A stretch of 64,000 nucleotides of DNA from Micromonospora arida. Lineage in GTDB: Bacteria > Actinomycetota > Actinomycetes > Mycobacteriales > Micromonosporaceae. The position numbers and the translations under genes were made by a program. The notes under the pieces are model-generated. The model ran no database searches. It was not told the DNA's origin and saw nothing but the letters and a program-made list of their open reading frames with translations. The DNA lies in contig NZ_QGSY01000087.1 of assembly GCF_003857035.1 (NCBI RefSeq), positions 1-64,000 of the forward strand. Reading direction: 5' to 3'. Position 1 is the first letter of the stretch; each line of letters starts with the position of its first letter. This document shows positions 36,656 through 52,449 of this stretch, piece by piece.

Positions 36656-36787
36656 CCGCTGCTCCTCACTTCGCGTTTCAGGGTCTTCCCGGCGGCGTTT
36701 GCGGGCGGCGCCCCCAGCCGGAGGTGCAGGGCGCCCGGCAGTCGGCGATGGTGAGATCGGCGCCGTCCGGGACCAGCATGGCTGCAA

Positions 36788-36804
36788 TGGAAACACTGTT
36801 TCCA
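36788..36804. promoter_or_regulatory. Best palindromic copy of the putative IclR operator (site b)
   Basis: TGGAAACACTGTTTCCA has perfect 8-base arms around one central base. It lies 133 bases before the cupin start and about 40 bases left of site c. Confidence 0.65.
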
Positions 36805-36843
36805 CGGGCACGGCAAGCCCGTCGTCCCGCAATGTTCCCCCTA

Positions 36844-36870
36844 GCGAAACGATGTATCCAGCGCATACGA
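36844..36870 (+). promoter_or_regulatory. Putative IclR operator overlapping the forward catabolic promoter (site c)
   Basis: CGAAAC-GAT-GTATCC lies at 36845-36859 within a 25-base match to site a. TACGAT at 36865-36870 would be the -10 box; the ATG at 36879 is then at or next to the transcription start, which suggests a leaderless mRNA. Confidence 0.6.
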
Positions 36871-36878
36871 TGCGTCGA

Positions 36879-37553
36879 ATGAATGGTGCCGAGTTGTCCG
36901 CCACCCCCGGCGGTACCGCGCGCGCTGGCAGGCTCGATGCCGACTACGCCGGTGCCGGGTTCGCCCGCCGGCTCGGCTGGGGCACCCGGCCCGCGCTCGT
37001 GCTGGTCGACCCCGTCGCCGCGTACGCCGTACCCTCGTCGCCGCTGTTCCTGGCCACCGCGGAGGCCGCGATGGCCGCGATGGCCGCGCTGGCTGCGGCG
37101 GCCCGCGCGGCCCGGGTTCCGGTGGCTTTCACCGCGGTGCGGTACGCCGACGAGTCCTGCGCCGAAGCGCCGCTGTTCGCCGCGAAGGTGCCGGCGCTGA
37201 CCGCGTTCGCCGCCGGCAACCCACTCGGCGACTTCCCGACCCAGGTCACGCCTGCCCCGGGCGATCACATCGTGTACAAGCACTACGCCAGCGCCTTCGC
37301 CGGAACCGCCCTGGCCGCCTGGCTCACCGCGGCCGGCGTCGACACGGTGGTGCTCGGCGGCTTCTCCACCAGCGGCTGCGTCCGCGCGTCGGCGGTGGAC
37401 GCTCTGCAACACGGGTTCCGCCCGATGGTGGTGCGCGAGGCGTGCGCCGACCGCGATCCCGGCCCGCACGAGGCCAACCTCTTCGACCTCGACGCCAAGT
37501 ATGCCGACGTGGTGCCGCTGGCCGACGCGGTCGCCCGGTTGGCCGACCACTGA
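36879..37553 (+). CDS. Isochorismatase-family cysteine amidase (maleamate/N-carbamoylsarcosine amidase-like)
   Basis: The 224-residue amidase has the triad Asp44 (LVDPV), Lys134 (VYKHYAS) and Cys167 (STSGCVRA). The ATG at 36879 was chosen over 36870 because the latter lies in the -10 box. The STSGCVRASAVDA block and the GPHEANLFDLDAKYADV ending place it with maleamate and N-carbamoylsarcosine amidases, not true isochorismatases. A close paralogue is at 49953. It starts the 12-gene forward operon and would turn a half-amide into a dicarboxylate plus ammonia. Confidence 0.87.
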   Translation: MNGAELSATPGGTARAGRLDADYAGAGFARRLGWGTRPALVLVDPVAAYAVPSSPLFLATAEAAMAAMAALAAAARAARVPVAFTAVRYADESCAEAPLFAAKVPALTAFAAGNPLGDFPTQVTPAPGDHIVYKHYASAFAGTALAAWLTAAGVDTVVLGGFSTSGCVRASAVDALQHGFRPMVVREACADRDPGPHEANLFDLDAKYADVVPLADAVARLADH

Positions 37554-38436: not shown

Positions 38437-39978
38437 GTGAAGGGTGTGCAGCTCAACATGGCCGCCGGGATCCGCGAGTTCGGCCGGGCCACGCCGGGCC
38501 GGGTCGCGGTCGTCGACGGCGACCACACCGTGACGTTCGGCGCGCTCGACGAGCGCTCCAACCGGCTCGCGTCCGCGACGCTCGCGCACGGCGTCGCCCC
38601 CGGTGAGCGGATCGCGGTGCTGAGCAACAACCGCTACGAGTACTTCGAGATATCGGCGGCGATGGCCAAGGCCGGCATCCCGACCGTGCCGCTGAACACG
38701 AAGAACAACAGCTCGGACAACGCCTACATCCTCGCCCACTCCCGGGCGAGGGGGATCATCCTGGCCGACGAACTGGCCGGCAACGTCGACGGCCTGCTCG
38801 ACGACCTGCCGCTCGTGCTCAGCTTCGCCGGCGAGGTCGGCCAGCGGTACGAGACGTTCCTGGGACAGGGCCGCGCGGTCGATCCGCAGGTCCCCGTCGA
38901 CGAACTCGACCCGTTCTGCGTCACCTACACCTCCGGCACGACCGGGCGGCCCAAGGGCGTCCTGCTGACCCACCGGGGGCGGGTCCTCACCGCGTTCGGA
39001 GTCGGGCTGGACTACGGGCTCGGCCCCAACCGCAGCACGATCGCCGTCGCACCGATGTACCACGGCGCGGGGTTCGCGTTCGCCTACACCGCCCCGATGC
39101 TCGGCGGCTCGTGCAGCGTGCTGCCGACCTGGGATCCGGAGCGGCTGTTGGACCTGATGGCCTCCAGTCGCGCCTCCACGGTGTTCCTGGTGCCCACGCA
39201 CGCCCAGCACCTCCGCCGGTTCTGCGAGGAGCCGGCCGCCCGGTACGACCTGTCGGCGCTGCGGACGCTCTACTTCAACGCCGCCGCGTTGCCGGTCGCG
39301 CTGAAGGAGTGGGTGATCGCCGCGTTCCCCGGCGTCGACGTGCACGAGCTGTACGGCTCGACCGAGTGCTCCATCGTCACCAACCTGCGCCCCGAGTTCG
39401 CCCTGGAACGGGCCGGCAGTGTCGGGCATCCCTGGTTCTGGAACGAGATCCGGCTCAAGGACGACGACGGCAACGAGGTCTCCCCGGGTGAGCCCGGCGA
39501 GCTGTTCGCCCGCTCGCCTCTGCTGCTGGCCGGGTACCTCGACGACGAGGAGGCCACCCGGGCCGGATACGACGCCGACGGGTTCTTCTCCGTCGGCGAC
39601 GTGGCCGTGCGCGATGAGGAGGGCTTCATCACCATCTTCGACCGGAAGAACGACATGATCATCGCGGGCGGGGTCAACATCTTTCCGCGCGAGATCGAGG
39701 AGGTCATCGCCCGCCACCAGCCGGTCGACGAGGTCGCCGTCATCGGCGTGCCCGACGAGGTGTACGGCGAGCGCATCGCCGCGTTCGTGGTGGGCCGCCC
39801 GGGGACGCTGATCGACGTCGGAGCCCTGGAGGGCCACGTCCGGCAGCACGTGGCGCGCTACAAGGTGCCCCGCGAGTGGCACGTCGTCGACGCGTTGCCG
39901 CGCAACCCGAGCGGCAAGATCCTCAAGCGGATGATCCGCGACGGGTACCTCGCGCGTGGTCAGAAGGAGAGTGGCTGA
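38437..39978 (+). CDS. AMP-forming acyl-CoA synthetase
   Basis: The 513-residue ligase has the phosphate-binding loop TYTSGTTGRPKGV (about 165-177), ELYGSTECS, the D-G-F-F-S-V-G-D hinge region and the late lysine in NPSGKILKRM. The full ANL layout is present with no carrier or extra domains. It would activate a free carboxylate, for example a side-chain propionate, as the CoA ester for the beta-oxidation-type enzymes downstream. Start GTG 38437; its stop overlaps the next ATG (TGATG). Confidence 0.9.
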   Translation: MKGVQLNMAAGIREFGRATPGRVAVVDGDHTVTFGALDERSNRLASATLAHGVAPGERIAVLSNNRYEYFEISAAMAKAGIPTVPLNTKNNSSDNAYILAHSRARGIILADELAGNVDGLLDDLPLVLSFAGEVGQRYETFLGQGRAVDPQVPVDELDPFCVTYTSGTTGRPKGVLLTHRGRVLTAFGVGLDYGLGPNRSTIAVAPMYHGAGFAFAYTAPMLGGSCSVLPTWDPERLLDLMASSRASTVFLVPTHAQHLRRFCEEPAARYDLSALRTLYFNAAALPVALKEWVIAAFPGVDVHELYGSTECSIVTNLRPEFALERAGSVGHPWFWNEIRLKDDDGNEVSPGEPGELFARSPLLLAGYLDDEEATRAGYDADGFFSVGDVAVRDEEGFITIFDRKNDMIIAGGVNIFPREIEEVIARHQPVDEVAVIGVPDEVYGERIAAFVVGRPGTLIDVGALEGHVRQHVARYKVPREWHVVDALPRNPSGKILKRMIRDGYLARGQKESG

Positions 39979-40517
39979 TGGGGCTCAAGCAAGGCTGGAC
40001 CGGGCGGTTCTTCGAGGACTTCGAAATCGGAGATGTCTACCAGCACCCGCTGGGACGCACCGTCACGGAGACCGACAACACCTGGTTCACGCTGCTGACC
40101 ATGAATACCAACGAGATGCACTTCAACGCCGAGTACGCCGCACGGTCGGAGTTCGGCAAGCCGCTCGTGGTGTCGACGCTCACGGTGGCCATCGCGGTCG
40201 GGCAGAGCGTCACCGACCTGACCCAGAACGCGTTCGCGAACCTCGGCTGGGACGAGATCCGGATGACCCACCCGGTGTTCGCCGGTGACACGCTCTACAG
40301 CGAGTCACTCGTGCTGGAGAAGCGCGAGTCTGCGTCCCGCCCGCATGCCGGCATCGTCACGGTGCGCACCCGCACGCTGAACCAGCACGGCGACGAGGTC
40401 TGCTCCTTCAAGCGCACGTTCTATGTGTACCGCCGGGGTGCCGAACAGCTGCAAAACCTCTTCCCGGTGGGGAAGTCCCCACTCTCCCTCGACGGCGACA
40501 GCAAGGAAACGGCATGA
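39978..40517 (+). CDS. MaoC-like hydratase
   Basis: The 179-residue hot-dog protein opens RFFEDFEIGDVYQHPLGR. It has MNTNEMHFNAEYA, where an N-x-x-H replaces the common D-x-N-x-x-H hydratase motif, and SEFGKPLVVS. This form occurs in mesaconyl-CoA and related hydratases. With the CitE-like lyase at 29772 it would complete mesaconyl-CoA to methylmalyl-CoA to glyoxylate and propionyl-CoA. It is distinct from the MaoC pair at 45424/45921. Confidence 0.82.
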   Translation: MGLKQGWTGRFFEDFEIGDVYQHPLGRTVTETDNTWFTLLTMNTNEMHFNAEYAARSEFGKPLVVSTLTVAIAVGQSVTDLTQNAFANLGWDEIRMTHPVFAGDTLYSESLVLEKRESASRPHAGIVTVRTRTLNQHGDEVCSFKRTFYVYRRGAEQLQNLFPVGKSPLSLDGDSKETA

Positions 40518-41548
40518 GGCTCACGTACCAGCCGTGGGGGGAGACGCTCGCGGAGCTGGCCGACGCCGGGCGCCGGGCGGAACGCGCGGGCGCCGAGGTG
40601 CTGTGGGCCTCGGAGCTGCACCGGAGCGCGACCGGCACCGCCGCGGCCCTGGCCGGGGCGACGTCGACCGCACGGATCGGCACCTCGATCGTCCTGGCGT
40701 TCACCCGCAGCCCGATGATCACCGCGCTGGAAGCGCTCGACCTGGACGAGCTGTCCGGTGGCCGGTTCGTGATCGGCCTCGGCTCCGGGGTGCGCCGGCT
40801 CAACGAGCAATGGCACAACGTGCCGTTCGGCAAGCCGGTCGGTCACCTGCGCGAGACGGTCCACAACATCCGGCTGTTCTGGGACGCCTGCACCACCGGC
40901 GCCGAGATCCGTGCCGACGGCGAGTTCGAGCCGATGCACATCCGCGGTTACGAGCGGCCGTACCCCGTTCCGGAGCGGCCGATCCCGGTGTACCTGGCCG
41001 CGATGGGCCCGCTGATGACCCGGTTGGCCGGCGAGATCGGCGACGGCTGGATCAGCCACGAGCTGTGCTCACCGGGGTACCTGCGGGAGCACATCCTGCC
41101 CGACCTCACCCTCGGCATCGACCGCGCGGACGGCAAGACCCGCCACGACGTCGACGTCGTCGTCTCCGCGTGCTGCTCGGTGGCCGCCGACCCCGCGCTC
41201 GCCCGCCGCCGCGCCGCCGGTGTGGTCGGCTTCTACGCCACGGTCCGCACCTACGCCGACTTCTTCGCGTTCCACGGCCTCGCCGAGGACCAGCAGGCCG
41301 TCATCGACGCGTTCCGGGCCGGTGCCGGCGCGGACCACCTCGCGGGCAGCGTCAGCGACCGGATGGTCGACGCGCTCACCATGGCCGGCACCCGCGACGA
41401 CGTCGCCGCCCGGATCGCGGCCTATGACGGCATCGCCGACACCGTGAAGCTGAGCCCGCCGACCCACGGGCTGCCTGCCGTCGAGATCCGCGCGGCCCAG
41501 GACGAGATCATCGCGCTGATCGGCGAGCTGACGGGAGCGACCACGTGA
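40514..41548 (+). CDS. Luciferase-like (LLM) F420-dependent oxidoreductase
   Basis: The 344-residue protein starts at an ATG overlapping the previous stop. GAEVLWASELHRSATGTAAALAG in the first barrel strands, IGTSIVLAFTRSPMITALEALDLDELSGGRFVIGLGSGV and PIPVYLAAMGPLMTRLAGEIGDGW are the LLM blocks; GLGSGV is the flavin/F420 phosphate loop. F420 use is usual for such proteins in actinomycetes but FMN is possible. It could reduce an enoyl or imine intermediate. Confidence 0.87.
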   Translation: MRLTYQPWGETLAELADAGRRAERAGAEVLWASELHRSATGTAAALAGATSTARIGTSIVLAFTRSPMITALEALDLDELSGGRFVIGLGSGVRRLNEQWHNVPFGKPVGHLRETVHNIRLFWDACTTGAEIRADGEFEPMHIRGYERPYPVPERPIPVYLAAMGPLMTRLAGEIGDGWISHELCSPGYLREHILPDLTLGIDRADGKTRHDVDVVVSACCSVAADPALARRRAAGVVGFYATVRTYADFFAFHGLAEDQQAVIDAFRAGAGADHLAGSVSDRMVDALTMAGTRDDVAARIAAYDGIADTVKLSPPTHGLPAVEIRAAQDEIIALIGELTGATT

Positions 41549-42813
41549 GACCGCTGGAGGACCTGCGCATCATCGCGGTCGAGCAGTACGGCGCCGGGCC
41601 GTTCGGCAGCGTGCACCTGGCCGACCTCGGCGCCCAGGTCATCAAGATCGAGGACCCGCGGGCCGGCGGCGACGTCGGCCGGTACGTGCCGCCGTACGCC
41701 GAGGACGAGGACTCGCTCTTCTTCGAGACGTTCAACCGCAACAAGCGCAGCGTCTCTCTCGATCTGGGTACCGCCGCCGGGCGCGGCGTCTTCGAACAAC
41801 TCGTCGCGGTCTCCGACGTCGTCTACTCCAACCTGCGCGGGGACGTGCCGGAGAAGCTGCGCATCCGGTACGACGACCTCAAGCACCTCAACCCGCGCAT
41901 CGTGTGCGTGTCGCTGACCGGGTTCGGGATGACCGGGCCGCGCAAGCAGGAACCCGGCTACGACTACGTGTTGCAGGGTCTCGCCGGCTGGATGGAGCTG
42001 ACCGGTGAGCCGGACGGACCGCCCACCAAGTCCGGACTGTCACTGGTGGACTACTCGGGCGGCTTCGTGGCCGCGATCTCGCTGCTGGCCGGGGTGCACG
42101 CCGCCCGCCGCGACGGCGTCGGGATGGACTGCGACGTCAGCCTCTACGACACCGCGGTGTCGATGCTGACCTATCCCGCGACGTGGCACCTGAACACCGG
42201 GTTCCAGCCGGGCCGCACACACCACTCGGCCCACCCGTCGCTCGTGCCGTTCCAGGCGTTCGAGGCCAAGGACGGCTGGATGGTCGTCGGCTGCGCGAAG
42301 GAGAAGTTCTGGGCCCGGCTGTGCCAGATCGTCGGCCACCCGGAGTGGGCCGAGGCCGGCTCGCCGTACGCGACCTTCGCCAGCCGGCGGGAGCACAGCG
42401 CCGACCTGGTGCCCCGGTTGGAGGCGATCTTCCGGCAGAAGACCGTCGACGACTGGCTCACGCAGCTCTACGCCGGGTCGATCCCGTGCGGCCCGATCAA
42501 CGACGTCGGCGCGGCCCTGGTGGACGAGCACACCGCCGCCCGGAACCTCGTGGTCACCACCGACCACCCCCGCTACGGCGAGGTACGGCAGCTCGCGTCC
42601 CCGGTGCGGGTCGGCGACGAGACGCCCACCTACCGCCGGGCACCGCAGCGCAACGAGGACCTCGCACTCGTCACCGAGGAGATCCTGGGCCTGGACGCGC
42701 AGCAGGTGGTGGCGCTGCGGGCGGCCGGCGCGTTCGGCGATGCCGAGCCGGCACACGGCGCGAACACCCCCGACACCCCTGACGGCCTCGACACCACAGC
42801 CATGTCACGATGA
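41545..42813 (+). CDS. CaiB/BaiF CoA-transferase
   Basis: The 422-residue protein starts at GTG overlapping the previous stop (GTGA). It carries EQYGAGPFGSVHLADLGAQ, VIKIEDP and the catalytic Asp in GMDCDVSLYDTA. The C-terminus has an extra low-complexity tail (NTPDTPDGLDTT). It belongs to the same family as the genes at 32997 and 54535 but the sequence differs, which suggests different acid substrates. Confidence 0.9.
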   Translation: MRPLEDLRIIAVEQYGAGPFGSVHLADLGAQVIKIEDPRAGGDVGRYVPPYAEDEDSLFFETFNRNKRSVSLDLGTAAGRGVFEQLVAVSDVVYSNLRGDVPEKLRIRYDDLKHLNPRIVCVSLTGFGMTGPRKQEPGYDYVLQGLAGWMELTGEPDGPPTKSGLSLVDYSGGFVAAISLLAGVHAARRDGVGMDCDVSLYDTAVSMLTYPATWHLNTGFQPGRTHHSAHPSLVPFQAFEAKDGWMVVGCAKEKFWARLCQIVGHPEWAEAGSPYATFASRREHSADLVPRLEAIFRQKTVDDWLTQLYAGSIPCGPINDVGAALVDEHTAARNLVVTTDHPRYGEVRQLASPVRVGDETPTYRRAPQRNEDLALVTEEILGLDAQQVVALRAAGAFGDAEPAHGANTPDTPDGLDTTAMSR

Positions 42814-44204
42814 TCGCCGAGGAGCTTGCCGAGTGGGGCACGGGCCACGTCGAAGTGCCGGCCGCGGTCCGGGTCGCAGCGCTGCGGCACCTGCTCGACG
42901 GGGTCGGAACGGCGTTGGGTGGGCTGCGCGCCAGCCCGACCACGGGGGAGCCCGGTGGGCCGTCGTCGATACCGGCCGTCGTCGTCGCCCGGGGACTCGG
43001 CGGGCCGCCGGAGGCGACGATCATCGGGTCGCGGGGCCGCGTCGGTGCGCCCGCCGCCGCGCTCGCCAACGGCACCCTCGTGCACGCACTGGACTTCGAC
43101 GACACCCACGCCGGCGGCCTCGTGCACGCCACAGCCGTGGTGCTGCCGGCCGCGTTCGCCGTCGGCGAGCAGGTCGGCGCGCCCGGCCGGGCCGTGCTCG
43201 AGGCCGCCGTCGTCGGCTACGAAACCGTGTGCCGGGTCGCCGCCGCCGCGTCGCACGGCTTCCACGCCCGCGGGCTGCACGCCACGATGGTGGCCGGCGT
43301 GTTCTCCTCGGCGATCGTCGCGTCCCGGCTGCTCGGCCTCGACGCCGCGCGGACGACCGACGCGCTCGGCATCGCAGGCAGCCAGGCCGGCGGGCTCCTC
43401 GCGTTCCTGCACAGTGGAGCCTCGACGAAGCAGCTGCACCCGGGATTCGCCGCGCACGCCGGCATCCTCGCCGCCCGGCTGGCCGCGGCCGGGGCCGGCG
43501 GCCCGGCGAACGTCCTCGACGGCCCGCACGGTGTCTACGACGCACTGGCCAGCGGCGCGGTCGACCTCGCGTCCATCACCGCCGAGCTCGGCACACGCTG
43601 GGAGACCACCCGGATCGGCATCAAGCCGTACCCGGCGTGCCAGCTCTCCCACGCCGCGATCGACGCGGTCCGCGACGCGGTGCGCCGCGGCGGTGTCCGT
43701 TCCGGCGACGTCGCCGCGATCGACGTCGACGTGCACCCCGACTCGGTGCCCACGGTCTGCGACACCCGGCGGGACCTGGCGCGGCCGGTGTCGCCGTACG
43801 CGGCGAAGTTCTCGCTGCCGTGGAGCATCGCCGCCGCCGTCGTCGACGGTGACCTGACCACCGCAACGTACGAGCCGGACTCGCTCGCCCGACCCGAGGT
43901 GGAACGCGTTGCCCGGCTGGTGCGTTGGCACCTTGCCCCCACCGGCGGCCCCGCAGCCGACGCGCCCGGCACCGCCCGCATCACGCTCGTCGACGGCTCG
44001 GCCGTTCCCGGCAGCGTGCCACGCAGCGCCGGCGGCCCGGACAACCCGCTGACCGACGAGCAGCTCGTCGCGAAGTTCCACGGCAACGCCGGTGGCGACA
44101 CCACAGACGTCGTCGACCTGCTGTCCCGTCTCGACGAGCTGGACACCATCGAACCGCTCATGGCGGCGCTGGCCGCCGCCGGTACAGGCAGGGACCGCCC
44201 GTGA
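42810..44204 (+). CDS. MmgE/PrpD family protein
   Basis: The 464-residue protein starts at an ATG overlapping the CoA-transferase stop. ANGTLVHALDFDDTHAGGL and KPYPACQLSHAAIDA are the pocket-forming blocks, and the layout parallels the paralogue at 30688. It may dehydrate or isomerise a branched di- or tricarboxylate or its derivative. Its stop overlaps the triple RidA gene. Confidence 0.88.
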   Translation: MIAEELAEWGTGHVEVPAAVRVAALRHLLDGVGTALGGLRASPTTGEPGGPSSIPAVVVARGLGGPPEATIIGSRGRVGAPAAALANGTLVHALDFDDTHAGGLVHATAVVLPAAFAVGEQVGAPGRAVLEAAVVGYETVCRVAAAASHGFHARGLHATMVAGVFSSAIVASRLLGLDAARTTDALGIAGSQAGGLLAFLHSGASTKQLHPGFAAHAGILAARLAAAGAGGPANVLDGPHGVYDALASGAVDLASITAELGTRWETTRIGIKPYPACQLSHAAIDAVRDAVRRGGVRSGDVAAIDVDVHPDSVPTVCDTRRDLARPVSPYAAKFSLPWSIAAAVVDGDLTTATYEPDSLARPEVERVARLVRWHLAPTGGPAADAPGTARITLVDGSAVPGSVPRSAGGPDNPLTDEQLVAKFHGNAGGDTTDVVDLLSRLDELDTIEPLMAALAAAGTGRDRP

Positions 44205-45427
44205 CGCCACACGCCATCAAACCGCCCTCCTTCCGCTGGTTCCCGTACGACGGCTTCACGTTCTGCCTCGGCCTCGCCGAGGGCGACGCGGCCTGGACCT
44301 CCGGCCACACCTCGGCCGCTTTCGACGAGGCCGTCGGCAGGATGACGGTCACCGGGGAGATGGCGGCGCAGGCGCGCACCGCGTACGAGAAGGTGCTGAC
44401 GATCCTGGCGGCCGCCGAGTTCGGGCCGCAGGACGTCACCCGGGTCACCGAGAACGTGACGGTCGCCGGGCTCGCCGAGTACGAGGCGGCCGCGGCGGTC
44501 CGACGGGAGGTCTTCGGCGACCACGAGCCCGTGCTGCGGACGGTCGTCGTCGAGCGGCTCGTGCGGCGTACCGCGCTGCTGGAGGTCGAGCTGCACGCGG
44601 TCCGCGGCGGCGGCGAGGTGCTGGCCGCCAGCGAGCCCCGGCCGGCCGGCGCGTGGCAGGCCTCCACCGTGCGGACCGGCCACGACGGCGCGGTGTACCT
44701 ACCGACGATGCTCCCGGTCGACGCCACCGGCGCCGTGGTCCACCCGGGGGATTTCGCCGCGCAGTACGCCTACTGCCTGGACCGGGCGGGCGACCTGCTC
44801 ACGGCGGTCGGGCTGTCCCTCGACGCGGTCGTCACGACCTACGACTACTCGACGCCGGAGACCCGCGACGTGTACCGCCGGACGCACCGCGTGCGGCGGG
44901 AACGCCTCGGCGGCGCCGGCGTGTACCCGGGCGCGGGCGGCATCCTGATGAGCCGGCTGCACCACCCGGACGCGCTCGTCGCGATCGACGTCACCGCCTC
45001 CCGGCACCGGTTGGAACTGGTCAACCCCGGCTGGTCCCGCTACGACACGCTCACCTACGCCCCCGGGGTCAGGGCCGGCCGGACCCTGTACATGTCCGGG
45101 TTCGCGGCGCTGGACATGCAGACGCAGCAGGCCCTGCACCCCGACGACATCGTGGCGCAGGCCGAGGCGACGTACGGCGCGATCCTGCACCTGCTGCGCC
45201 ACGCCGGCCTCGGACCGGAACACCTGCTGGAGACGACCGAATACTGCGTCGAGTCCGCGCTGTCGGCGTACCGGGGCGTGGCCGGCGTGCGGGAACGGCT
45301 GCTCAGCCCGCCCTGGCCGGCGTCGACCGGAGCGATCTGCAAGGCCCTGCTGCGCCCCGAGTTCCTGCTCGAGGTGTTCCCGACGGCGGTGTATCCGAAT
45401 ATCAGCGGAGCGGAGGAGACGGCGTGA
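44201..45427 (+). CDS. Three-domain RidA (YjgF/UK114) protein
   Basis: The 408-residue protein starts at GTG 44201 (GTGA overlap). Three consecutive RidA-like domains are visible: about 25-140 (WTSGHTS ... QARTAYEKVLTILAAAEFG ... RRTALLEVEL), 150-275 (QYAYCLDRAGDLLTAVGLS ... PDALVAIDV) and 280-405 (LYMSGFAAL ... AEATYGAILHLLRHAGLG ... RPEFLLEVF). RidA proteins hydrolyse enamines and imines and normally form trimers of about 130-residue chains with three active sites at the interfaces; one chain with three domains may form the trimer alone. Useful where ring opening frees enamines. Confidence 0.82.
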   Translation: MTPHAIKPPSFRWFPYDGFTFCLGLAEGDAAWTSGHTSAAFDEAVGRMTVTGEMAAQARTAYEKVLTILAAAEFGPQDVTRVTENVTVAGLAEYEAAAAVRREVFGDHEPVLRTVVVERLVRRTALLEVELHAVRGGGEVLAASEPRPAGAWQASTVRTGHDGAVYLPTMLPVDATGAVVHPGDFAAQYAYCLDRAGDLLTAVGLSLDAVVTTYDYSTPETRDVYRRTHRVRRERLGGAGVYPGAGGILMSRLHHPDALVAIDVTASRHRLELVNPGWSRYDTLTYAPGVRAGRTLYMSGFAALDMQTQQALHPDDIVAQAEATYGAILHLLRHAGLGPEHLLETTEYCVESALSAYRGVAGVRERLLSPPWPASTGAICKALLRPEFLLEVFPTAVYPNISGAEETA

Positions 45428-45924
45428 GCCTGCTGACCGACGACCTGCGCGCACTGCTGGGCACGAGGAAGGTCTACACCGCGCCCGAACCGCTCGGCGC
45501 CGCGGCCGGCCGGTACTTCGGCATGGCCGTCGGCGACGACAACCCGCTCTACTCCGACTCCGAGTTCGCCCGCGCGCAGGGCCTGCCGGGCGTGACCGCC
45601 CCACCGACGCTCATCTGCGAAACCAACCAGTACGCGAACCTCCCGATGGACAGCGACGGCTATGCCGGGCACTCCTGGCACCTCGACCTCCCCGGTACCC
45701 GCCAGGTTCGCGGCGGCAACAGCTACACCTTCCACCGCCGGGTACGCCCCGACGACGTCATCACCGCGACCTGGGAGATCCACGACCTGACCGAGAAGCA
45801 GACCCGCACCGGCGCGGACATGCTCGTGGTCTCCTCGCGCGCGACGTACACCAACCAGGACGGGGAACTGCTCGCCGTCAACGAGGAGACGATCATCCTG
45901 GTCAGCCTGGACGGTGCCGCATGA
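45424..45924 (+). CDS. FAS1-like/MaoC N-terminal hot-dog dehydratase subunit
   Basis: The 166-residue protein starts at GTG overlapping the previous stop. The N-terminus (AAAGRYFGMAVGDDNPLYSDSEFAR) and VTAPPTLICET match the non-catalytic FAS1-like dehydratase half seen in ChsH2 and related heteromeric hydratases. The next gene gives the second hot-dog half, so the pair probably forms one enoyl-CoA hydratase. No DUF35 domain is fused, unlike ChsH2; that domain is encoded at 47500. Confidence 0.82.
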   Translation: MSLLTDDLRALLGTRKVYTAPEPLGAAAGRYFGMAVGDDNPLYSDSEFARAQGLPGVTAPPTLICETNQYANLPMDSDGYAGHSWHLDLPGTRQVRGGNSYTFHRRVRPDDVITATWEIHDLTEKQTRTGADMLVVSSRATYTNQDGELLAVNEETIILVSLDGAA

Positions 45925-46364
45925 CACCTCGGATGCCACCGAACGTCGGGGCTGCGCTGCCCACGCTGGAACGCACCATCACGCTCACCGACATGGTCGC
46001 CTACGCCGGCGCGACCTGGGACTGGTACCGCCTGCACTTCGACCCCGAGTTCGCGGCCGCCGCGCGGGTCCCGGGCCCGGTCGTGGACGGGCAGGTGTTC
46101 GGGGCGCTCTTCGTCGAGCTGCTGCAGGACGCGCTCGGCCCGCGCTGCTTCGTGCACGAGTTGTCGTTCACGTTCCGGAACCTGATGTTCGCCGGCGAGA
46201 CCGTGCGGTGCGAGGCGACCGTGGTCGAGGTCGGCGCCGACCGCGTCCGGGTCGAGCTCTCCGCCACGATCCTGGCCAGCGAGTACGGCCCGCAACGGCC
46301 CGCCGCCAGCCCTGCCCACGCGACGGTTCTGCTCGGCGCGGCCGACGGGCCGGCCGCGCGGTGA
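45921..46364 (+). CDS. MaoC-like hydratase subunit
   Basis: The 147-residue protein starts at an ATG overlapping the previous stop. It has the hot-dog core with AGATWDWYRLHFDPEFA, where an aspartate/His pair (W-D-W-x-x-L-H) stands in for the hydratase motif, and VPGPVVDGQVFGA. It resembles ChsH1, the catalytic partner of ChsH2, by size and position. Its stop overlaps the thiolase-like gene. Confidence 0.82.
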   Translation: MTPRMPPNVGAALPTLERTITLTDMVAYAGATWDWYRLHFDPEFAAAARVPGPVVDGQVFGALFVELLQDALGPRCFVHELSFTFRNLMFAGETVRCEATVVEVGADRVRVELSATILASEYGPQRPAASPAHATVLLGAADGPAAR

Positions 46365-47503
46365 CCGGCGTCGCGATCGTCGGTGCGGCCGAGTGCGATC
46401 TCGGCAACACCGGGAAGTCCACGCTCACCCTGCAGACCCAGGCCGTCACCCGGGCGCTCGCCGACGCCGGGCTGACCCTCGCCGACGTCGACGGACTGGC
46501 CACCACCGGAGTGTCCCGCTTCTCCACCACACAGCTCGCCGAGTATCTCGGGCAGCAGCCCCGCTGGGTCGACTCGACGTTCGTCGGCGGGTCGGCGGCC
46601 GAGATGATGGTCGCCCGCGCCACGCAGGCGATCGACGCCGGCCAGGCGTCCACCGTGGTCATCAGCTTCGCGTCGAACCAGCGCTCCGCGCGCTCGCGCA
46701 GCCTCGGCGGCATCGTCGAGGAGCACACCCCGGAGGCCCAGTTCGAGGCGCCGTACGGCCCGTTGTACCCGCTGTCGTACTACGCGATGGCGGCACAGCA
46801 GTACTTCCACCGGTACGGCGGCACGCGGGAGAAGCTGGCCGAGATCGCGGTCGCCGCCAGGGAGTGGGCGCTGCTCAACCCGGCCGCGTTCCGCTACGGC
46901 GCCGGGCCGCTGACCGTCGACGACGTGCTCGCCGCGCCGATGGTCTCCAGCCCGCTGACCGTCGCCGACTGCTGCCTGGTGACCGACGGCGGCGGAGCGG
47001 TCGTGCTCACCACGCTCGACCGGGCCCGCGACCTGCGGCACCCGCCGGTACGGGTCCTCGGGTACGGCGAACGGTCGACGAACACGTCGATGACCGCGGT
47101 CGAGGACCTGACGGTCACCGGCGCGCGCGAGTCCGGCCGGGAGGCGTTCGCCCGGGCCGGCATCACACCGGCTGACGTGGACGTGCTGGAGGTGTACGAC
47201 TCGTTCACCATCACCGCCGCGCTCAGCATCGAGGCGCTGGGCTTCTGCGGCCCGGGGGAGGTGCTCGACTTCATCCAGGACGGCCGGATCCGTCCCGGCG
47301 GTGAGCTGGCGCTGGACACCTCCGGCGGTGGCCTGTCGTACTGCCATCCCGGTCAGTACGGGGTGCTGCTGCTGGTGGAGGCGGTCCGCCAACTGCGCGG
47401 CGAGGCGGGAGCCCGGCAGGTGCCCGACGCCCGGGTGGCCGTGGCGCACGGCACCGGCGGGATCCTGTCCACGCACGCGACGGTCGTGCTGGGGGTGCGG
47501 TGA
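46361..47503 (+). CDS. Thiolase-fold protein, Ltp2-like (probable retro-aldolase)
   Basis: The 380-residue protein starts at GTG overlapping the previous stop. It has the thiolase fold of the SCP2/lipid-transfer type: VAIVGAAECDLG, SFVGGSAAEMMVARA-like block (TFVGGSAAEMMV) and HGTGGILSTHATVVL at the end. The usual nucleophile cysteine position is not evident (TFVGG). A DUF35 protein follows directly. The same pairing in steroid degradation (Ltp2 with the ChsH2 DUF35 domain) is an aldolase that removes a side chain, so retro-aldol cleavage is my preferred reading. Confidence 0.8.
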   Translation: MTGVAIVGAAECDLGNTGKSTLTLQTQAVTRALADAGLTLADVDGLATTGVSRFSTTQLAEYLGQQPRWVDSTFVGGSAAEMMVARATQAIDAGQASTVVISFASNQRSARSRSLGGIVEEHTPEAQFEAPYGPLYPLSYYAMAAQQYFHRYGGTREKLAEIAVAAREWALLNPAAFRYGAGPLTVDDVLAAPMVSSPLTVADCCLVTDGGGAVVLTTLDRARDLRHPPVRVLGYGERSTNTSMTAVEDLTVTGARESGREAFARAGITPADVDVLEVYDSFTITAALSIEALGFCGPGEVLDFIQDGRIRPGGELALDTSGGGLSYCHPGQYGVLLLVEAVRQLRGEAGARQVPDARVAVAHGTGGILSTHATVVLGVR

Positions 47504-47880
47504 TGCATGTGCCGCCACCCGACGACGTGACGGCCGGCTGGTGGGACGCCACCCGGGAGCACCGCTACACGCTGCAGACCTGCGGGTCCTGCGGGCACGT
47601 CCAGCATCCGCCGCGTGCGCTGTGCACCGCCTGCTCGTCGATGGTGGATCTCGGGCTCGTCGAGGCGTCCGGCCACGGCGTCGTGGACACGTTCACCGAG
47701 GTGCATCGGGCGCCCGTGCCGGGGGCTGCCGTGCCGTACACGATCGCCCGGATCCGGCTCGCCGAGGGACCGTTCGTGCTGTCCACCCTCGACGGGCAGG
47801 ACTGGCGGATCGGCGACCCGGTCCGTGTCGGTTGGCTCGACCTCGACGACGGCCGGGCGCTGCCGGTCTTCCACCGCTGA
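47500..47880 (+). CDS. DUF35 zinc-ribbon/OB-fold protein
   Basis: The 126-residue protein has a four-cysteine zinc ribbon CGSCGHVQHPPRALCTAC, then an OB-like strand set (VEASGHGVVDTFTEVHR). GTG 47500 gives the usual GTGA overlap; ATG 47503, the next codon, is equally possible. DUF35 proteins are partners of thiolase-fold enzymes, here the gene just upstream. Confidence 0.85.
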   Translation: MMHVPPPDDVTAGWWDATREHRYTLQTCGSCGHVQHPPRALCTACSSMVDLGLVEASGHGVVDTFTEVHRAPVPGAAVPYTIARIRLAEGPFVLSTLDGQDWRIGDPVRVGWLDLDDGRALPVFHR

Positions 47881-47892
47881 CGGAGGCTACCC

Positions 47893-49050
47893 ATGGACTT
47901 CACGCTCACCGAGGAGCAGCAGGACTTCCGCGCCCTGCTCCGCACGTTCGTCGACCGGGAGATCATCCCGGTCGCGCGGGAGTGGGAGCAAACCGGGCGG
48001 TACCCGACGGAGATCGTGCGGGGGATGGCCGAGATGGGGCTGTTCGGCATCACCGTGCCGGAACAGTACGGCGGCCTCGACCTCGACCCGGTCTCGTTCG
48101 CGCTGGTGTTCGAGGAACTCGCCCGCGGCTGGATGGGCATCGCCGGCATCCTCGGCAGCCACTCCCTGGCCTGCCGGATGATCGCCATACACGGCACCGA
48201 GGAGCAGAAGCAGGCCTACCTGCCCGACCTCGCCACCGGCGCCCGGCGGACCGGCATCGGCCTCACCGAGCCGGACGCCGGTACCGACCTGCAGGGCATC
48301 CGCACCACCGCCCGCCTCGACGGCGACCACTACGTCGTCAACGGCACCAAGATGTGGATCACCAACGCGCGGTACGCCGACCCGCTGCCGGTGCTGGTCA
48401 AGACCGACCCGCAAGCCACGCCCGCGCACACCGGCATGAGCGTGCTGCTCGTCGACGCGACGCTGGACGGCTTCCAGGTCCTGCGGGACATCCCGAAGCT
48501 CGGCTACAAGGGCACCGAGTCCTGCGAGATCCTTCTCGACAACGTGCGGGTACCGAAGGACCGGTTGCTCGGTGGCGTCGAGGGCGTCGGCCTCAAGCAG
48601 GCGTTGTCCGCCCTGGAGTGGGGCCGGGTCAACATCGCCGCGCGGTCGGTCGGCATCGCGCAGCGCGCCCACGACGAGGCGCTGGCCTACGCCCGGCAGC
48701 GTAAGGCGTTCGGCAAGCACATCGCCGAGTTCCAGGCGATCCAGCTCAAGCTCGCCACCATCGCGATCCAGCTCCAGGCCGCCCGCCTGATGGCGTACTG
48801 GGCGGCCGACGCGGTCCGGCGCGGTCGCGCCGACGGGCAGACCGGGATGGCCAAGGTGTTCTGCTCGGAGGTGGCCCTCGAAGCCGCGATCGACGCGATG
48901 AAGGTGCACGGCGGCTACGGCTACTCCACCGAGTTCGAGGTCGAGCGCCTCTACCGGGACTCGATCCTGATGAGCATCGGCGAGGGCACGAACGACATCC
49001 TGCGGACCGTCGTCGCGAAGGCGCTCGTACGCGGCGACGTGACGGTCTGA
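47893..49050 (+). CDS. Acyl-CoA dehydrogenase
   Basis: The 385-residue enzyme has TVPEQYGGLDLDP, the FAD-binding TEPDAGTDLQGIRTTA and WITNARYAD strands, and the late GGYGYSTEFEVERLYRD ... IGEGTNDILR with the catalytic Glu of EGT. This is a true acyl-CoA dehydrogenase, unlike the protein at 25687. GGAGG precedes the ATG. It ends the forward operon and would introduce the double bond that the MaoC pair hydrates. Only 6 bases separate it from the stop of the convergent lyase gene. Confidence 0.92.
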   Translation: MDFTLTEEQQDFRALLRTFVDREIIPVAREWEQTGRYPTEIVRGMAEMGLFGITVPEQYGGLDLDPVSFALVFEELARGWMGIAGILGSHSLACRMIAIHGTEEQKQAYLPDLATGARRTGIGLTEPDAGTDLQGIRTTARLDGDHYVVNGTKMWITNARYADPLPVLVKTDPQATPAHTGMSVLLVDATLDGFQVLRDIPKLGYKGTESCEILLDNVRVPKDRLLGGVEGVGLKQALSALEWGRVNIAARSVGIAQRAHDEALAYARQRKAFGKHIAEFQAIQLKLATIAIQLQAARLMAYWAADAVRRGRADGQTGMAKVFCSEVALEAAIDAMKVHGGYGYSTEFEVERLYRDSILMSIGEGTNDILRTVVAKALVRGDVTV

Positions 49051-49056
49051 CACTGC

Positions 49057-49956
49057 TCAGGCGGGAAAACCGCCCGCCCGGAGCAGAGCGCCGGGAAGTT
49101 GCTTGCCGAGTCTCCGTTCCAACCAGGAGACGGCCGAGGTCAGTTCCTCCACATTCAGGCCGGTGGACCGCCCCATCCGGTCGAAGAGGTAGACGAGATC
49201 CTCGGTGGCGACGTTTCCGGTCGCCGCCGGTGCGAACGGGCAACCGCCTGTTCCACCGATGCTGGCGTCGAGGGTGGTGACGCCCGCCTGGACTGCCGCG
49301 ACCGCGTTGGCCACGCCGGTGTGCCGGGTGTCGTGCAGGTGCAGCCGCAGCGGTGTGCGGGACTGCGTGACCTCCCGGGCGAGCGTCAGCCGATCGGTGA
49401 CGTCGGAGGGTACGGCCACTCCGATGGTGTCGGCGAGGGCCAGTTCGTCCGGACCCGCGTCCCGCACCCGGGTGAGTACCTCCCGCAGCCGATTCGGCGG
49501 GACCTCGCCTTCGAACGGGCATCCGAACGAGGCGCCCACGGTCACCGTCGTGAACACCCCTGCCTCGCGAGCCGCCCGCACCAGTACTGCGGCTGTGTCA
49601 CAGGCTTGGGCGGTGGTCATGCCCTGGTTGCGGCCGCAGAAGGTGTCCGTGGCCACGACGACGACGTTGATCTCGTCGACGCCCGCGGCCAGAGCTCGGT
49701 CCAGGCCGCGGCGGTTCATCACCAGGCCCGCGTATCGGACGCCGTCGCGGCGGGGGAGCGCGGCCATCAGCTCGTCCGCGTCCGCCATCTGCGGAACGCG
49801 GGCGGGGTTGACGAAGCTGGTCACCTCCACTCGCCGGGCTCCCGCGCGTACCGACCGCTCGATGAGCTCGATCTTGTCGGCGGTGGTGAGGAGCGTCGCC
49901 TCGTTCTGCAAACCGTCGCGGGGCGAAACCTCCACGATGTCGACCATGATTGTCAT
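49057..49956 (-). CDS. Hydroxymethylglutaryl-CoA lyase family protein
   Basis: The 299-residue DRE-TIM barrel has VEVSPRDGLQNE (Arg13, Asp14), the metal ligands in LHLHDTRHTG, DASIGGTGGCPFAPAATGN with the catalytic loop Cys, and a TEDLVYLFDRMG ending. All HMG-CoA lyase active-site elements are present, in contrast to the decayed copy fused to the flavin reductase at 26970. It cleaves HMG-CoA-like thioesters. The ATG overlaps the amidase stop; it is the last gene of the HyuAB operon. Confidence 0.9.
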   Translation of the reverse strand: MTIMVDIVEVSPRDGLQNEATLLTTADKIELIERSVRAGARRVEVTSFVNPARVPQMADADELMAALPRRDGVRYAGLVMNRRGLDRALAAGVDEINVVVVATDTFCGRNQGMTTAQACDTAAVLVRAAREAGVFTTVTVGASFGCPFEGEVPPNRLREVLTRVRDAGPDELALADTIGVAVPSDVTDRLTLAREVTQSRTPLRLHLHDTRHTGVANAVAAVQAGVTTLDASIGGTGGCPFAPAATGNVATEDLVYLFDRMGRSTGLNVEELTSAVSWLERRLGKQLPGALLRAGGFPA

Positions 49957-50579
49957 CGCTCCTCCGACAGGTACGCGACGGCCCTGGCCTCGCTGATCAC
50001 CTCGGCGTACTTGGCTTGCAGGTCGTACAGGCTCGCCTCGTGCGGGCCGGGGGCGCGGTCCGCCACCGCTTCGGAGACCACCAGCGGGACGAAACCGTGC
50101 TGGATCGCGTCCACCGCCGTGGCACGGACACAACCGCTCGTGCTCACGCCGATCAGCACGACGGTGTCGATGCGCTCCGCCCGCAGGGTGGAGGCCAGCG
50201 ACGTGCCGAAGAAGGCGCTGGCGTACTGCTTGACCAGCACCAGTTCATTCTCGGCGGGGGAGACCTGCGGCATCAGCTCACCCATCGCGCCACCGCCGGA
50301 GAAGAGCTGCCGAAGGGCGGTGACCTTCCGGACGAAGAGGCCTCCGTCGACACCGCCGGGCCCGTACGCGACGCGGGTGTGCAGCACGGGAACCCGGTGG
50401 TCGCGGGCTGCGGCGATGACCCGGCCAGCCGAGGGCAGGCAGTCCGCGGACGGCAGGCACAGGGGGCTGGCCGGGTCGAAGTAGGCCCGCATCAGGTCGA
50501 TGACAAGCACCGCGGGACGGGCGCCGGGCAGGAGTGCGCCCCCGAATCCGTCGTCGCTGCTGTCCGGCACGGGGCTCAT
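49953..50579 (-). CDS. Isochorismatase-family cysteine amidase, paralogue of the gene at 36879
   Basis: The 208-residue amidase has the triad Asp28 (LVIDLM), Lys117 (LVKQYAS) and Cys150 (STSGCVRA). It shares STSGCVRATAVDAIQHGF and DRAPGPHEASLYDLQAKYAE with the gene at 36879, so the two are recent relatives. Next to HyuA/HyuB it could act as an N-carbamoyl-amino-acid or half-amide amidase. ATGA overlaps on both sides. Confidence 0.87.
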   Translation of the reverse strand: MSPVPDSSDDGFGGALLPGARPAVLVIDLMRAYFDPASPLCLPSADCLPSAGRVIAAARDHRVPVLHTRVAYGPGGVDGGLFVRKVTALRQLFSGGGAMGELMPQVSPAENELVLVKQYASAFFGTSLASTLRAERIDTVVLIGVSTSGCVRATAVDAIQHGFVPLVVSEAVADRAPGPHEASLYDLQAKYAEVISEARAVAYLSEER

Positions 50580-52447
50580 CGGGCGACAGGCGGCCGAGGA
50601 GCAGGAAGACCGGTCTCCTCCAGGCACCGGTCCAGGATGGTTTCCATCGGCGGTCCCATGTCGAACGTGGGCAGTGGGTCCGGACGTCCGTGACGCAGCT
50701 CGGCCCGTACCTCCTCGGTGGCCGCGACGTCGACGGCGCCGGCCTCGTCGCAGACCACGCCGTAGCGGCGAGCCCCCGTGGGGCTGACCAGACCCCGGCG
50801 GACCTCGAGGCCGACGAGTTCCGGGTCGCGGGCGAGCGGGTCGCCCCAACCGCCGCCACCCCAGGTGACGAAGTGCAGCACGTCCCCGGGAGCTACGGGC
50901 ACGTCGTGCACCTTGCTGCCCAGGATCTCGGTGCCGCCGTCGGCGCGTTCGAGCCACTTGCGGCCGCGCGCACCGGGCTCGCCACCGTTGACCCCCCACG
51001 GATAGGTGAGCCAGCGGTCGTCGTGGATCGCGATCGTGCCGGCCTCCAGGAACCGGTAGGCCACGTCGACGCCGTTCCCGCCGCGATGAAGCCCGGCGCC
51101 ACCGGTGTCCGCGATGGTCTCCCAGCGTTCGATCCGGAGCGGGTAGTAGGACTCCAGGTACTCGCACGGGATGTTGACGAACGACGGCCACAGCGAGTGG
51201 CCGTCCGGGCCGTCCCCCAGCGGTCGGCCGGGAATCCCGCCGAATCCGATCGAGTACAGCTGGAACCACTCGCCCTTGCGCTCGCCGGGCCCGTAGGTGC
51301 CCGAATACATGAAGTGCGGCGATGACGAGAAGCCGGCGGCGTTGAGCAGCCCGGGGTTCGTCTGACCGAGCAGGCCGCCGAACAGGTCGAAGACGCGACC
51401 GATGCCGTGGTTACGCGCGTTGAGGGCGGCGGGGTACGTGGGCTTCCAGAACGAATCGTCGGGGATCGTGACGTCGACCAGCGGGTAGAAGCCGTCGTTC
51501 CAGAGGATCTGCGGGTCGGCGACGGTGATCATGTAGATGCCGAAGAACATCCGGACGAGGTTCTCGTTGATGTAGTAGTTGATCGGGCCCTGCGCCTGCG
51601 GGCTGCTGCCGGTGAAGTCCAGCAGCACCTTGTCACCGGTACGGGTCAGGCTGAGCTTGAGCTCGTAGGGGCCGTAGCCGAGGCCGTCGTCGCAGATGTA
51701 GTCGGTGAACGACAGCGTCTCGCCCTCCTTGAAGACCGCGTGGAGCAGGATCTTCATGGCCCGGTAGTTGCGGTCCAGGAGCTGGTCGAGCGCAGAGTTG
51801 TACGTGTCCACCCCGAACCGGGCGCACATCTCCTGGACCCGACGGGAAGCGGTCCGGCACGCCGCGACGATGCCGTTGAGGTCGGCGCGGTTCCAGTCGG
51901 GCTTCCGCACCTGGTTGAGGATGATCCGCAGGGCGTCCTCGGCGAGCACGCCCTTGCGGTACAGCTTGAAGGGCGGGATCACCACGCCCTCCTCGAAGAT
52001 GGTGCGGGCATCGGTCGGCATCGACGCCGGTGTCTTGCCGCCGACGTCGGACATGTGCCCGAACATCGCCGCCCAGCCCACGATGCGGCCCTCGAAGAAG
52101 ATGGGCAGCACCACGAGCCAGTCGTTCGCATGGCTGATCGCCGCACCGCAGGAGTAGGGGTCGGACGTCAGCAGGACGTCGCCCTCCTCGATGTCGCCGT
52201 CGAAGTTCTCCAAAAAGTCGGGGATGGACAGCCCGAACTGTCCCACCATCATTTTGCCGTCAGGGTTGGCGATCAGCGGAAACTCGTCGTGCTGTTCACG
52301 GATCCCCGGCGACAGCGCGGTCCGGAAGAGCACCTCGTCCATCTCGTAGCGGGCGTTGCGCAGCCCGTTCTCGATCAGGTCGATGGTGACCAGGTCGACA
52401 TCCACGGAGCGAAGTGGTCCGGTAGCGGTCTCGATGAGGCGTGCCAT
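50576..52447 (-). CDS. hyuB: Hydantoinase B / oxoprolinase beta-type subunit
   Basis: The 623-residue protein has the HyuB blocks: TIDLIENGLRNARYEMDEV near the start, ISHANDWLVVLPIF, LDFTGSSPQAQGPINY and the C-terminal GGGNGVDVAYRFLEAG and WGGGGWGDPL. With HyuA it forms an ATP-dependent cyclic-amide hydrolase (N-methylhydantoin, 5-oxoproline, acetone or acetophenone carboxylase relatives). The ATG lies 2 bases after the HyuA stop. Confidence 0.9.
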   Translation of the reverse strand: MARLIETATGPLRSVDVDLVTIDLIENGLRNARYEMDEVLFRTALSPGIREQHDEFPLIANPDGKMMVGQFGLSIPDFLENFDGDIEEGDVLLTSDPYSCGAAISHANDWLVVLPIFFEGRIVGWAAMFGHMSDVGGKTPASMPTDARTIFEEGVVIPPFKLYRKGVLAEDALRIILNQVRKPDWNRADLNGIVAACRTASRRVQEMCARFGVDTYNSALDQLLDRNYRAMKILLHAVFKEGETLSFTDYICDDGLGYGPYELKLSLTRTGDKVLLDFTGSSPQAQGPINYYINENLVRMFFGIYMITVADPQILWNDGFYPLVDVTIPDDSFWKPTYPAALNARNHGIGRVFDLFGGLLGQTNPGLLNAAGFSSSPHFMYSGTYGPGERKGEWFQLYSIGFGGIPGRPLGDGPDGHSLWPSFVNIPCEYLESYYPLRIERWETIADTGGAGLHRGGNGVDVAYRFLEAGTIAIHDDRWLTYPWGVNGGEPGARGRKWLERADGGTEILGSKVHDVPVAPGDVLHFVTWGGGGWGDPLARDPELVGLEVRRGLVSPTGARRYGVVCDEAGAVDVAATEEVRAELRHGRPDPLPTFDMGPPMETILDRCLEETGLPAPRPPVAR

Positions 52448-52449
52448 GG

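Follow-up and report, generated by a model that had tools for sequence, protein, structure and literature searches.

The Rid (YjgF/YER057c/UK114) fold is known both from separate chains and from fused ones. RutC, RidA and the 2-aminomuconate deaminase AmnE consist of separate chains that form trimers or hexamers, and in RidA Asn88 bonds and helps orient Arg105 on one side of the intersubunit pocket (PMC1884159). In contrast, 3x-RidA (EF_0115) of Enterococcus faecalis contains three tandem Rid domains that were presumed to form a covalently linked trimer unit (Niehaus et al., 2015, PMC4433059), and the Toblerone fold of the cyanuric acid hydrolase AtzD was derived from concatenated YjgF monomers (Peat et al., 2013, PMC3758960). 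The idea of a fused trimer is therefore already in print. Among the literature matches listed for fused Rid proteins, the 2015 paper on 3x-RidA and a paper on DUF71 were relevant. The Rid4 to Rid7 subfamilies, which lack Arg105, were termed mysterious in 2015 (PMC4433059), and by 2021 no member had been reported to show deaminase activity (PMC8113886). Here we describe a triple Rid-domain protein encoded in a stretch of 64,000 nucleotides from Micromonospora arida (contig NZ_QGSY01000087.1, positions 1 to 64,000; the window hereafter). In its family three domains without Arg105 are fused and the half-sites have evolved separately. The protein is probably a chorismatase-like enzyme of a catabolic pathway. 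We give an even chance to the full account developed below, namely a Rid pseudotrimer with diverged pockets, one of which (site alpha) carries out catalysis for one step of an acyl-CoA catabolic operon. More interesting than the fusion is that a single symmetric ring has divided into pockets that are not equal, and the family would allow a clean test of the passage from symmetric trimer to asymmetric enzyme that chorismatase and AtzD also exemplify.

A single chain of three Rid domains

The gene occupies positions 44201-45427 of the forward strand, from a GTG start codon at 44201 to a TGA stop codon at 45425-45427, and encodes 408 residues. It overlaps by four bases with the stop of an MmgE/PrpD gene on its 5' side and with the start of a MaoC-type gene on its 3' side. 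PF01042 was the sole Pfam family matched (E up to 0.1), in three stretches and with 99.5 bits for the whole protein. Domain 1 (residues 1-138; 44201-44614) scored 39.5 bits and domain 3 (residues 272-400; 45014-45400) 40.8 bits; domain 2 (residues 150-271; 44648-45013) is weak by sequence, with 26.5 bits against a cut-off of 27.3. Profile comparison found the domains to be mutually homologous (E 8e-24 for domains 1 and 3, 2e-17 for domains 2 and 3, and 1e-13 for domains 1 and 2). Profile and predicted fold both place the protein in the Rid superfamily. An earlier note, made from the sequence alone, had proposed three RidA-like domains in 408 residues that may form a single-chain trimer; the open reading frame, the three PF01042 stretches and the folds confirm the first part of that proposal.

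An AlphaFold2 model of the whole chain, built from an alignment of 29 sequences, had a predicted local distance difference test score (pLDDT) of 92.0 and a predicted template modelling score (pTM) of 0.91, and domain 1 has a Rid fold in it. Domain 2, whose Pfam score is just short of the cut-off, was also modelled alone and again folds as a Rid domain (pLDDT 91.3, pTM 0.86), and the best structural matches of this lone model were AmnE (Z 17.0 over 110 residues) and RutC (Z 16.9 over 111 residues). RutC, RidA and AmnE share the domain fold, with Z of about 15-19 to single domains. For the whole-chain model, Foldseek ranked seven chorismatase chains on top. VIA-align with chorismatase 5ag3 gave Z 25.4 with 288 of 332 residues aligned at 3.2 Å (model residues 28-397), and the FkbO/Hyg5 structures 5ag3, 5a3k and 4bps together gave Z 24.9-25.4 over 288-289 residues, whereas single Rid chains aligned over about 108-135 residues and came next at Z of about 19 over about 122 residues. 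Chorismatase, a single chain with a Rid-type fold, is therefore the best whole-chain structural match, and the chain studied here is predicted to close in the same way. From this match, we take chorismatase to be a pseudotrimer itself. The confident monomer prediction and its closest kin thus support the single-chain trimer as a model, and as a structure it is likely. Unlike the triple Rid protein, chorismatase has an N-terminal part of its own family, PF21168, and a C-terminal part below the PF01042 cut-off (22.2 bits in the homologue from genome G173).

No Arg at the Arg105 position of any of the three domains

Conservation was read from 48 unique sequences, window included. A fragment (L093) and three duplicates had been removed beforehand, and the residue table omits L065, which has a poor frame, and L057, which was re-extracted as L092. 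In the alignment with Escherichia coli RidA, the Arg105 position corresponds to L112, A245 and S375 in domains 1, 2 and 3. None of the 48 sequences has Arg there: the residues are Val, Leu or Ile in domain 1, Ala, Ser or Asn in domain 2, and Ser, Leu or Val in domain 3. The protein also missed the cut-off of the RidA family TIGR00004 (58.5 versus 106.25 bits) and that of the RutC family TIGR03610 (57.3 versus 169.1 bits), and the catalytic Arg of RutC, which carries an Arg105-type residue as RidA does, is likewise absent. 3x-RidA resembles the triple Rid protein in its three tandem Rid domains, as far as the description of EF_0115 allows comparison, but it was described as a subset of RidA (PMC4433059), whereas Arg105 is missing here throughout. 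Because of this loss we treat a plain RidA deaminase as a rival explanation only. The handling of imines or enamines by the RidA mechanism, which the earlier note had suggested, is weakened by the same observation, and a deaminase function in textbook form is unlikely as judged from these alignments.

All 48 sequences contain an Arg at the position of RidA Tyr91 in each of the three domains, namely R101 (44501-44503), R232 (44894-44896) and R364 (45290-45292). This helix Arg sits one helical turn from the position of RidA Asn88. In a separate set of 30 single-domain Rids, a basic residue was present at position 91 in 10 of the 21 proteins without Arg105 (five Arg or Lys, five His) and in none of the nine with Arg105; L106, with an Arg one place off, was tallied among the former. 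The contrast (Fisher p 0.013) was counted by eye in related sequences and is a lead only.

Three unequal pockets

The pocket of RidA is lined on one side by Glu120, and we would place Tyr17 and Gly31 on that side as well. The corresponding residues are complete in domain 1 (F21, 44261-44263; G35 within S34-G35-H36, 44300-44308; E128, 44582-44584) and in domain 3 (Y286, 45056-45058; G300 within S299-G300, 45095-45100; E391, 45371-45373). In domain 2, the Glu120 position (residue 261) is Ala, Ser, Val, Gln or Trp in 48 of 48 sequences and never Glu, and the Gly31 position (residue 169) is Thr or Ser in 44 of 48. The opposite side of the pocket is formed by the strand at RidA positions 103-107, which reads PVLRT in domain 1, PGAGG in domain 2 (P243 to G247; 44927-44941) and PASTG in domain 3 (P373-A-S375-T376-G377; 45317-45331). 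The earlier note had remarked that the active-site strand differs between the domains and that the interface sites could be non-equivalent; both points are borne out.

To assign the halves to pockets we turned to the Hyg5-type chorismatases, in which the acid is Glu325 of Nat-hyg5 (Glu334 of Hyg5) and Gly164, Gly231 and Cys318 are subfamily residues (PMC7170507). Their places were found in two chorismatase homologues that match PF21168, with the Glu as the point from which residues were counted backwards. In the last domain this Glu occupies the position of RidA Glu120 and corresponds to E391. Gly231 falls on the Gly of the last-domain Ser-Gly in both homologues (G300 here), and Cys318 on a Cys in both, seven residues before the Glu. 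The place of Gly164 is inside the middle-domain stretch PAA(T) (244-246 here). The small residues of the middle-domain strand are a further likeness, as is a helix Arg in the middle domain (two of two homologues). In this placement the active site of chorismatase lies where the Glu side of domain 3 meets the domain 2 strand, which is site alpha here. Rotating the scheme would form site beta from the Glu side of domain 1 and domain 3, and site gamma from the Glu side of domain 2 and domain 1. Site beta looks usable, and a second intact pocket is one way in which the triple Rid protein differs from chorismatase.

The halves that this scheme pairs were kept or lost together. The two halves of site beta (E1/R3) were both kept in 39 of the 48 sequences and both lost in nine, and those of site alpha (E3/R2) were both kept in 47 and both lost in one; no sequence was mixed for either site. 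The alternative pairings E1/R2 and E3/R3 were mixed in 10 sequences each. After thinning at 90% identity to 35 sequences, the counts for kept, lost and mixed were 27, 8 and 0 for E1/R3 and 34, 1 and 0 for E3/R2. The nine proteins of family f19 have an unaligned start of domain 1, no E128 and no domain 3 Ser-Thr-Gly, and they keep site alpha. Conversely, one relative (L055) has lost Y286, E391 and the domain 2 strand and retains site beta. The f19 relatives without the first part of domain 1 are L084, L085, L087-L092 and L056. The short start is confirmed in L089, L090 and L092, where a stop closes the frame 13-15 codons ahead of the point at which the alignment begins; in the other six the frame runs on further upstream, and the truncation is judged from the missing alignment.

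Proposed mechanism

We infer from these data a covalently linked Rid pseudotrimer that would be the intramolecular counterpart of the RidA homotrimer, similar to chorismatase and with three recognisable Rid domains. Site alpha, made up of Tyr286, Gly300 and Glu391 together with the Pro-Gly-Ala-Gly-Gly strand of domain 2 and probably Arg232, would be the main catalytic site. Glu391 could serve as general acid/base toward a carbon of enol or enamine type in an intermediate that is a carboxylate or an acyl-CoA, and the Arg of helix 2 may anchor the carboxylate of the substrate in place of the lost strand Arg105. Site beta (Phe21, Gly35, His36 and Glu128 with the Ala-Ser-Thr-Gly of domain 3) would be a second, different and dispensable site, and site gamma a degenerate pocket. 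Within a conserved operon of actinobacteria for acyl-CoA catabolism, the enzyme would account for one step. In a bolder version, which we put forward tentatively, the protein is a bifunctional pseudotrimer with two separately losable active sites and one dead site, its Arg moved to helix 2, in an undescribed F420-linked acyl-CoA pathway of Actinomycetota.

Several observations weigh against this proposal. The sequence link to chorismatase is marginal: domain 3 matched chorismatase domain 3 with 87% probability (E 3.7e-6), domain 2 matched chorismatase domain 2 with only 1.7% probability in profile comparison, and PF21168 was not matched in the triple Rid protein (E up to 0.1). A search of the window's own genome for PF21168 gave no match either. 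In the two chorismatase homologues the helix Arg is present in the middle domain, but the last domain has a Cys in its place. At the separate Cys318 position, seven before E391, the triple Rid protein has a Leu. Gly164 is shifted by two places from one chorismatase homologue to the other. The joint loss of half-sites amounts to about two evolutionary events (the f19 clade and L055) rather than 48, and the criteria for keeping and losing were chosen after the residue table had been seen. The geometry of the pockets and the order in which the domains follow one another about the axis are inferences rather than measurements on coordinates. The reaction and the substrate are guesses from the operon context, and the oxidoreductase of that operon is missing from two of 33 loci, L055 and L057.

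Alternative explanations

The alternative that survives best, although we consider it unlikely, is an enamine or imine deaminase like RidA or RutC in which the relocated helix Arg takes the place of Arg105. The Rid fold and the Glu120 position retained in domains 1 and 3 agree with such an enzyme, Rid proteins have been found in catabolic operons (PMC8113886), and at two remote loci (L069 and L071) the layout of oxidoreductase, carbon-nitrogen hydrolase and aldehyde dehydrogenase genes resembles the Rut pathway. The invariant loss of Arg105 from all three domains and the distance to the RutC and RidA cut-offs argue against it, as do the Rids without Arg105 tested so far, which are reported to have shown no deaminase activity (PMC4433059, PMC8113886). 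In addition, the oxidoreductase is nearest to the F420-dependent Mer (below), and RutA was not among its eight matches at E 1e-10.

It is quite improbable that the protein is a non-catalytic Rid, that is, a scaffold, chaperone or ligand-binding subunit that holds the operon enzymes together. Such a role would fit the loss of all three Arg105 positions, the third pocket without Glu in all 48 sequences and the fact that each of the other two pockets has been lost somewhere, but pocket residues are among the invariant or near-invariant columns, and only one of the 48 sequences has lost site alpha. Finally, a Toblerone-type hydrolase, with the central barrel as active site and a threefold Arg set binding the substrate, is very improbable: AtzD too is a concatenated Rid-like trimer with pseudo-threefold symmetry and one active-site Arg per repeat (PMC3758960), and the three equivalent Arg are invariant in the triple Rid family, but AtzD is of another family by sequence, PF01042 was the only Pfam match and the AtzD/TrzD/barbiturase profile did not match, no Ser-Lys pair is conserved per repeat (alignment A1 has a single invariant Lys, Lys64), and by homology the helix Arg would lie on an outer helix and not in the barrel. 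AtzD was not among the 50 structural matches listed, which by itself excludes nothing.

Distribution and ancestry of the domains

The same fusion was found across Actinomycetota relatives. Alignment A1 consists of the window protein and 28 of 35 extracted relatives, and every one of the 28 has the triple architecture, even at 47% identity. The closest named relative, from Micromonospora sp. HK10, is 98% identical. The alignments omit L061, which is 98% identical, and L027-L029, of which two are partial and the third is remote. A peptide-pattern scan of genomes yielded 22 loci, including two partial ones and a remote one, and the named long relatives were all from Actinomycetota. Among genomes of the class, 20 of 394 matched at E 1e-10, with 12 long and eight single-domain matches; for the order the count was seven of 397 (one partial), for the phylum four of 396, and for the family of G241 17 of 200 (one with domain 3 only). 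Two further samples gave two of 119 and one of 66. These counts include the window's own genome or the genome on which the sample was centred, and the samples overlap and lie inside the phylum by design. A search of plasmids found no triple Rid match at E 1e-8. Only this search and the peptide-pattern scan looked outside the phylum, and a wider spread is possible.

In a tree of the domains (without 19 of 85 domain rows), each domain formed its own clade, with support values of 99/99, 98/94 and 100/100, which indicates that one fusion precedes the sampled family. The order between the clades was not resolved by the tree, and the domains may stem from a triplication or from three distinct Rid genes. 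In profile comparison, domains 1 and 3 were the best pair when set against small single-domain groups (135-140 versus at most 110). A profile of all single-domain sequences scored 156 with domain 3 and 111 with domain 2, compared to 100 for domains 2 and 3 with each other. Of the 32 loci chosen for the single-domain set, five gave no match.

A conserved acyl-CoA operon

The triple Rid gene is one of ten genes of a conserved operon on the forward strand. Upstream are genes for a MaoC-like hydratase (39978-40517), a luciferase-like oxidoreductase that is of the F420 type by kinship (40514-41548), a family III CoA-transferase (41545-42813) and the MmgE/PrpD-family protein (42810-44204). Downstream follow a FAS1_DH/MaoC-type hydratase (45424-45924), a second MaoC-type hydratase (45921-46364), a thiolase-like protein (46361-47503), an OB-fold/zinc-ribbon partner of the ChsH2 type (47500-47880) and an acyl-CoA dehydrogenase (47893-49050). 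Conservation was counted with tblastn (E 1e-15) in those 33 of 40 loci whose flanks reach 4.8 kb or more on each side; the other seven have short flanks. The CoA-transferase, MmgE/PrpD protein, both downstream MaoC-type proteins, thiolase and OB protein were each found in 32 of 33 loci, the oxidoreductase in 31, the acyl-CoA dehydrogenase and the first MaoC protein in 30, and an HpcH-type lyase in 27. When the loci were thinned to triple Rids less than 90% identical (n = 25), the oxidoreductase was present in 23 and the MmgE/PrpD protein in 24. With the gene firmly placed in an operon of ten genes, pathway logic can guide the search for its substrate. The relative that has lost site alpha (L055) has no oxidoreductase; neither has L057, where site alpha is intact, and no link between the two losses can therefore be claimed.

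Judged by its gene families, the operon is one of acyl-CoA catabolism. The earlier note had taken the neighbours for ring-degradation genes, which the CoA-transferase, MmgE/PrpD, MaoC, thiolase and acyl-CoA dehydrogenase content does not bear out, nor does it establish a ring-cleaving step; a Rieske oxygenase is encoded in the window at 15516-16778, about 27 kb from the triple Rid gene. The first MaoC protein matched the mesaconyl-CoA hydratase family with 83.9 bits (cut-off 26.5), and the best NCBIfam match of the CoA-transferase was succinyl-CoA:mesaconate CoA-transferase (258 versus a cut-off of 700), which together are at most a hint of C5 dicarboxylyl-CoA chemistry. Among solved proteins, the oxidoreductase is closest to F420-dependent methylenetetrahydromethanopterin reductase (Mer); its best F420 family score, 187, is below the cut-off of 278. 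The MmgE/PrpD protein is closest to iminodisuccinate epimerase. The single paper listed in a literature search on the operon deals with steroid transcriptomes, and its mention of a Rid gene could not be connected with the triple Rid family.

At L069 (7240-12320) and L071 (3046-8996), which come from genomes of other classes, the oxidoreductase adjoins the triple Rid gene and is the only one of the operon matches at E 1e-15 to do so directly; weak MaoC-like matches (E about 1e-8) also follow. It is the sole operon gene near the triple Rid gene at L069, where an AMP ligase lies 8 kb off, and the shorter stretch of L071 keeps it together with a DUF4437 cupin. Both loci have a carbon-nitrogen hydrolase (PF00795) and an aldehyde dehydrogenase (PF00171) within 6 kb. 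A Rut-like pathway, considered because of these neighbours, was weakened by the F420-type oxidoreductase and by the rarity of the isochorismatases of the window. The latter, two isochorismatase-family hydrolases, flank the operon together with a hydantoinase B/A pair (36753-37550, 49956-50570 and 50579-54525); L008 was the only one of the 33 loci in which the hydantoinase genes recurred, and the isochorismatases were found in three and four of these loci, whose flanks are short for such genes. The DUF4437 cupin is encoded in the window at 35789-36601 and near the triple Rid gene in L008, L013, L021, L051, L071, L074 and L133; it was present in five of the 33 loci with at least 4.8 kb of flank, never within 6 kb. 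A second MmgE/PrpD gene and a PF04199 cyclase gene were found 3.6-9.5 kb away in eight of the 33 loci (L021, L051, L052, L055, L057, L130, L133 and L135).

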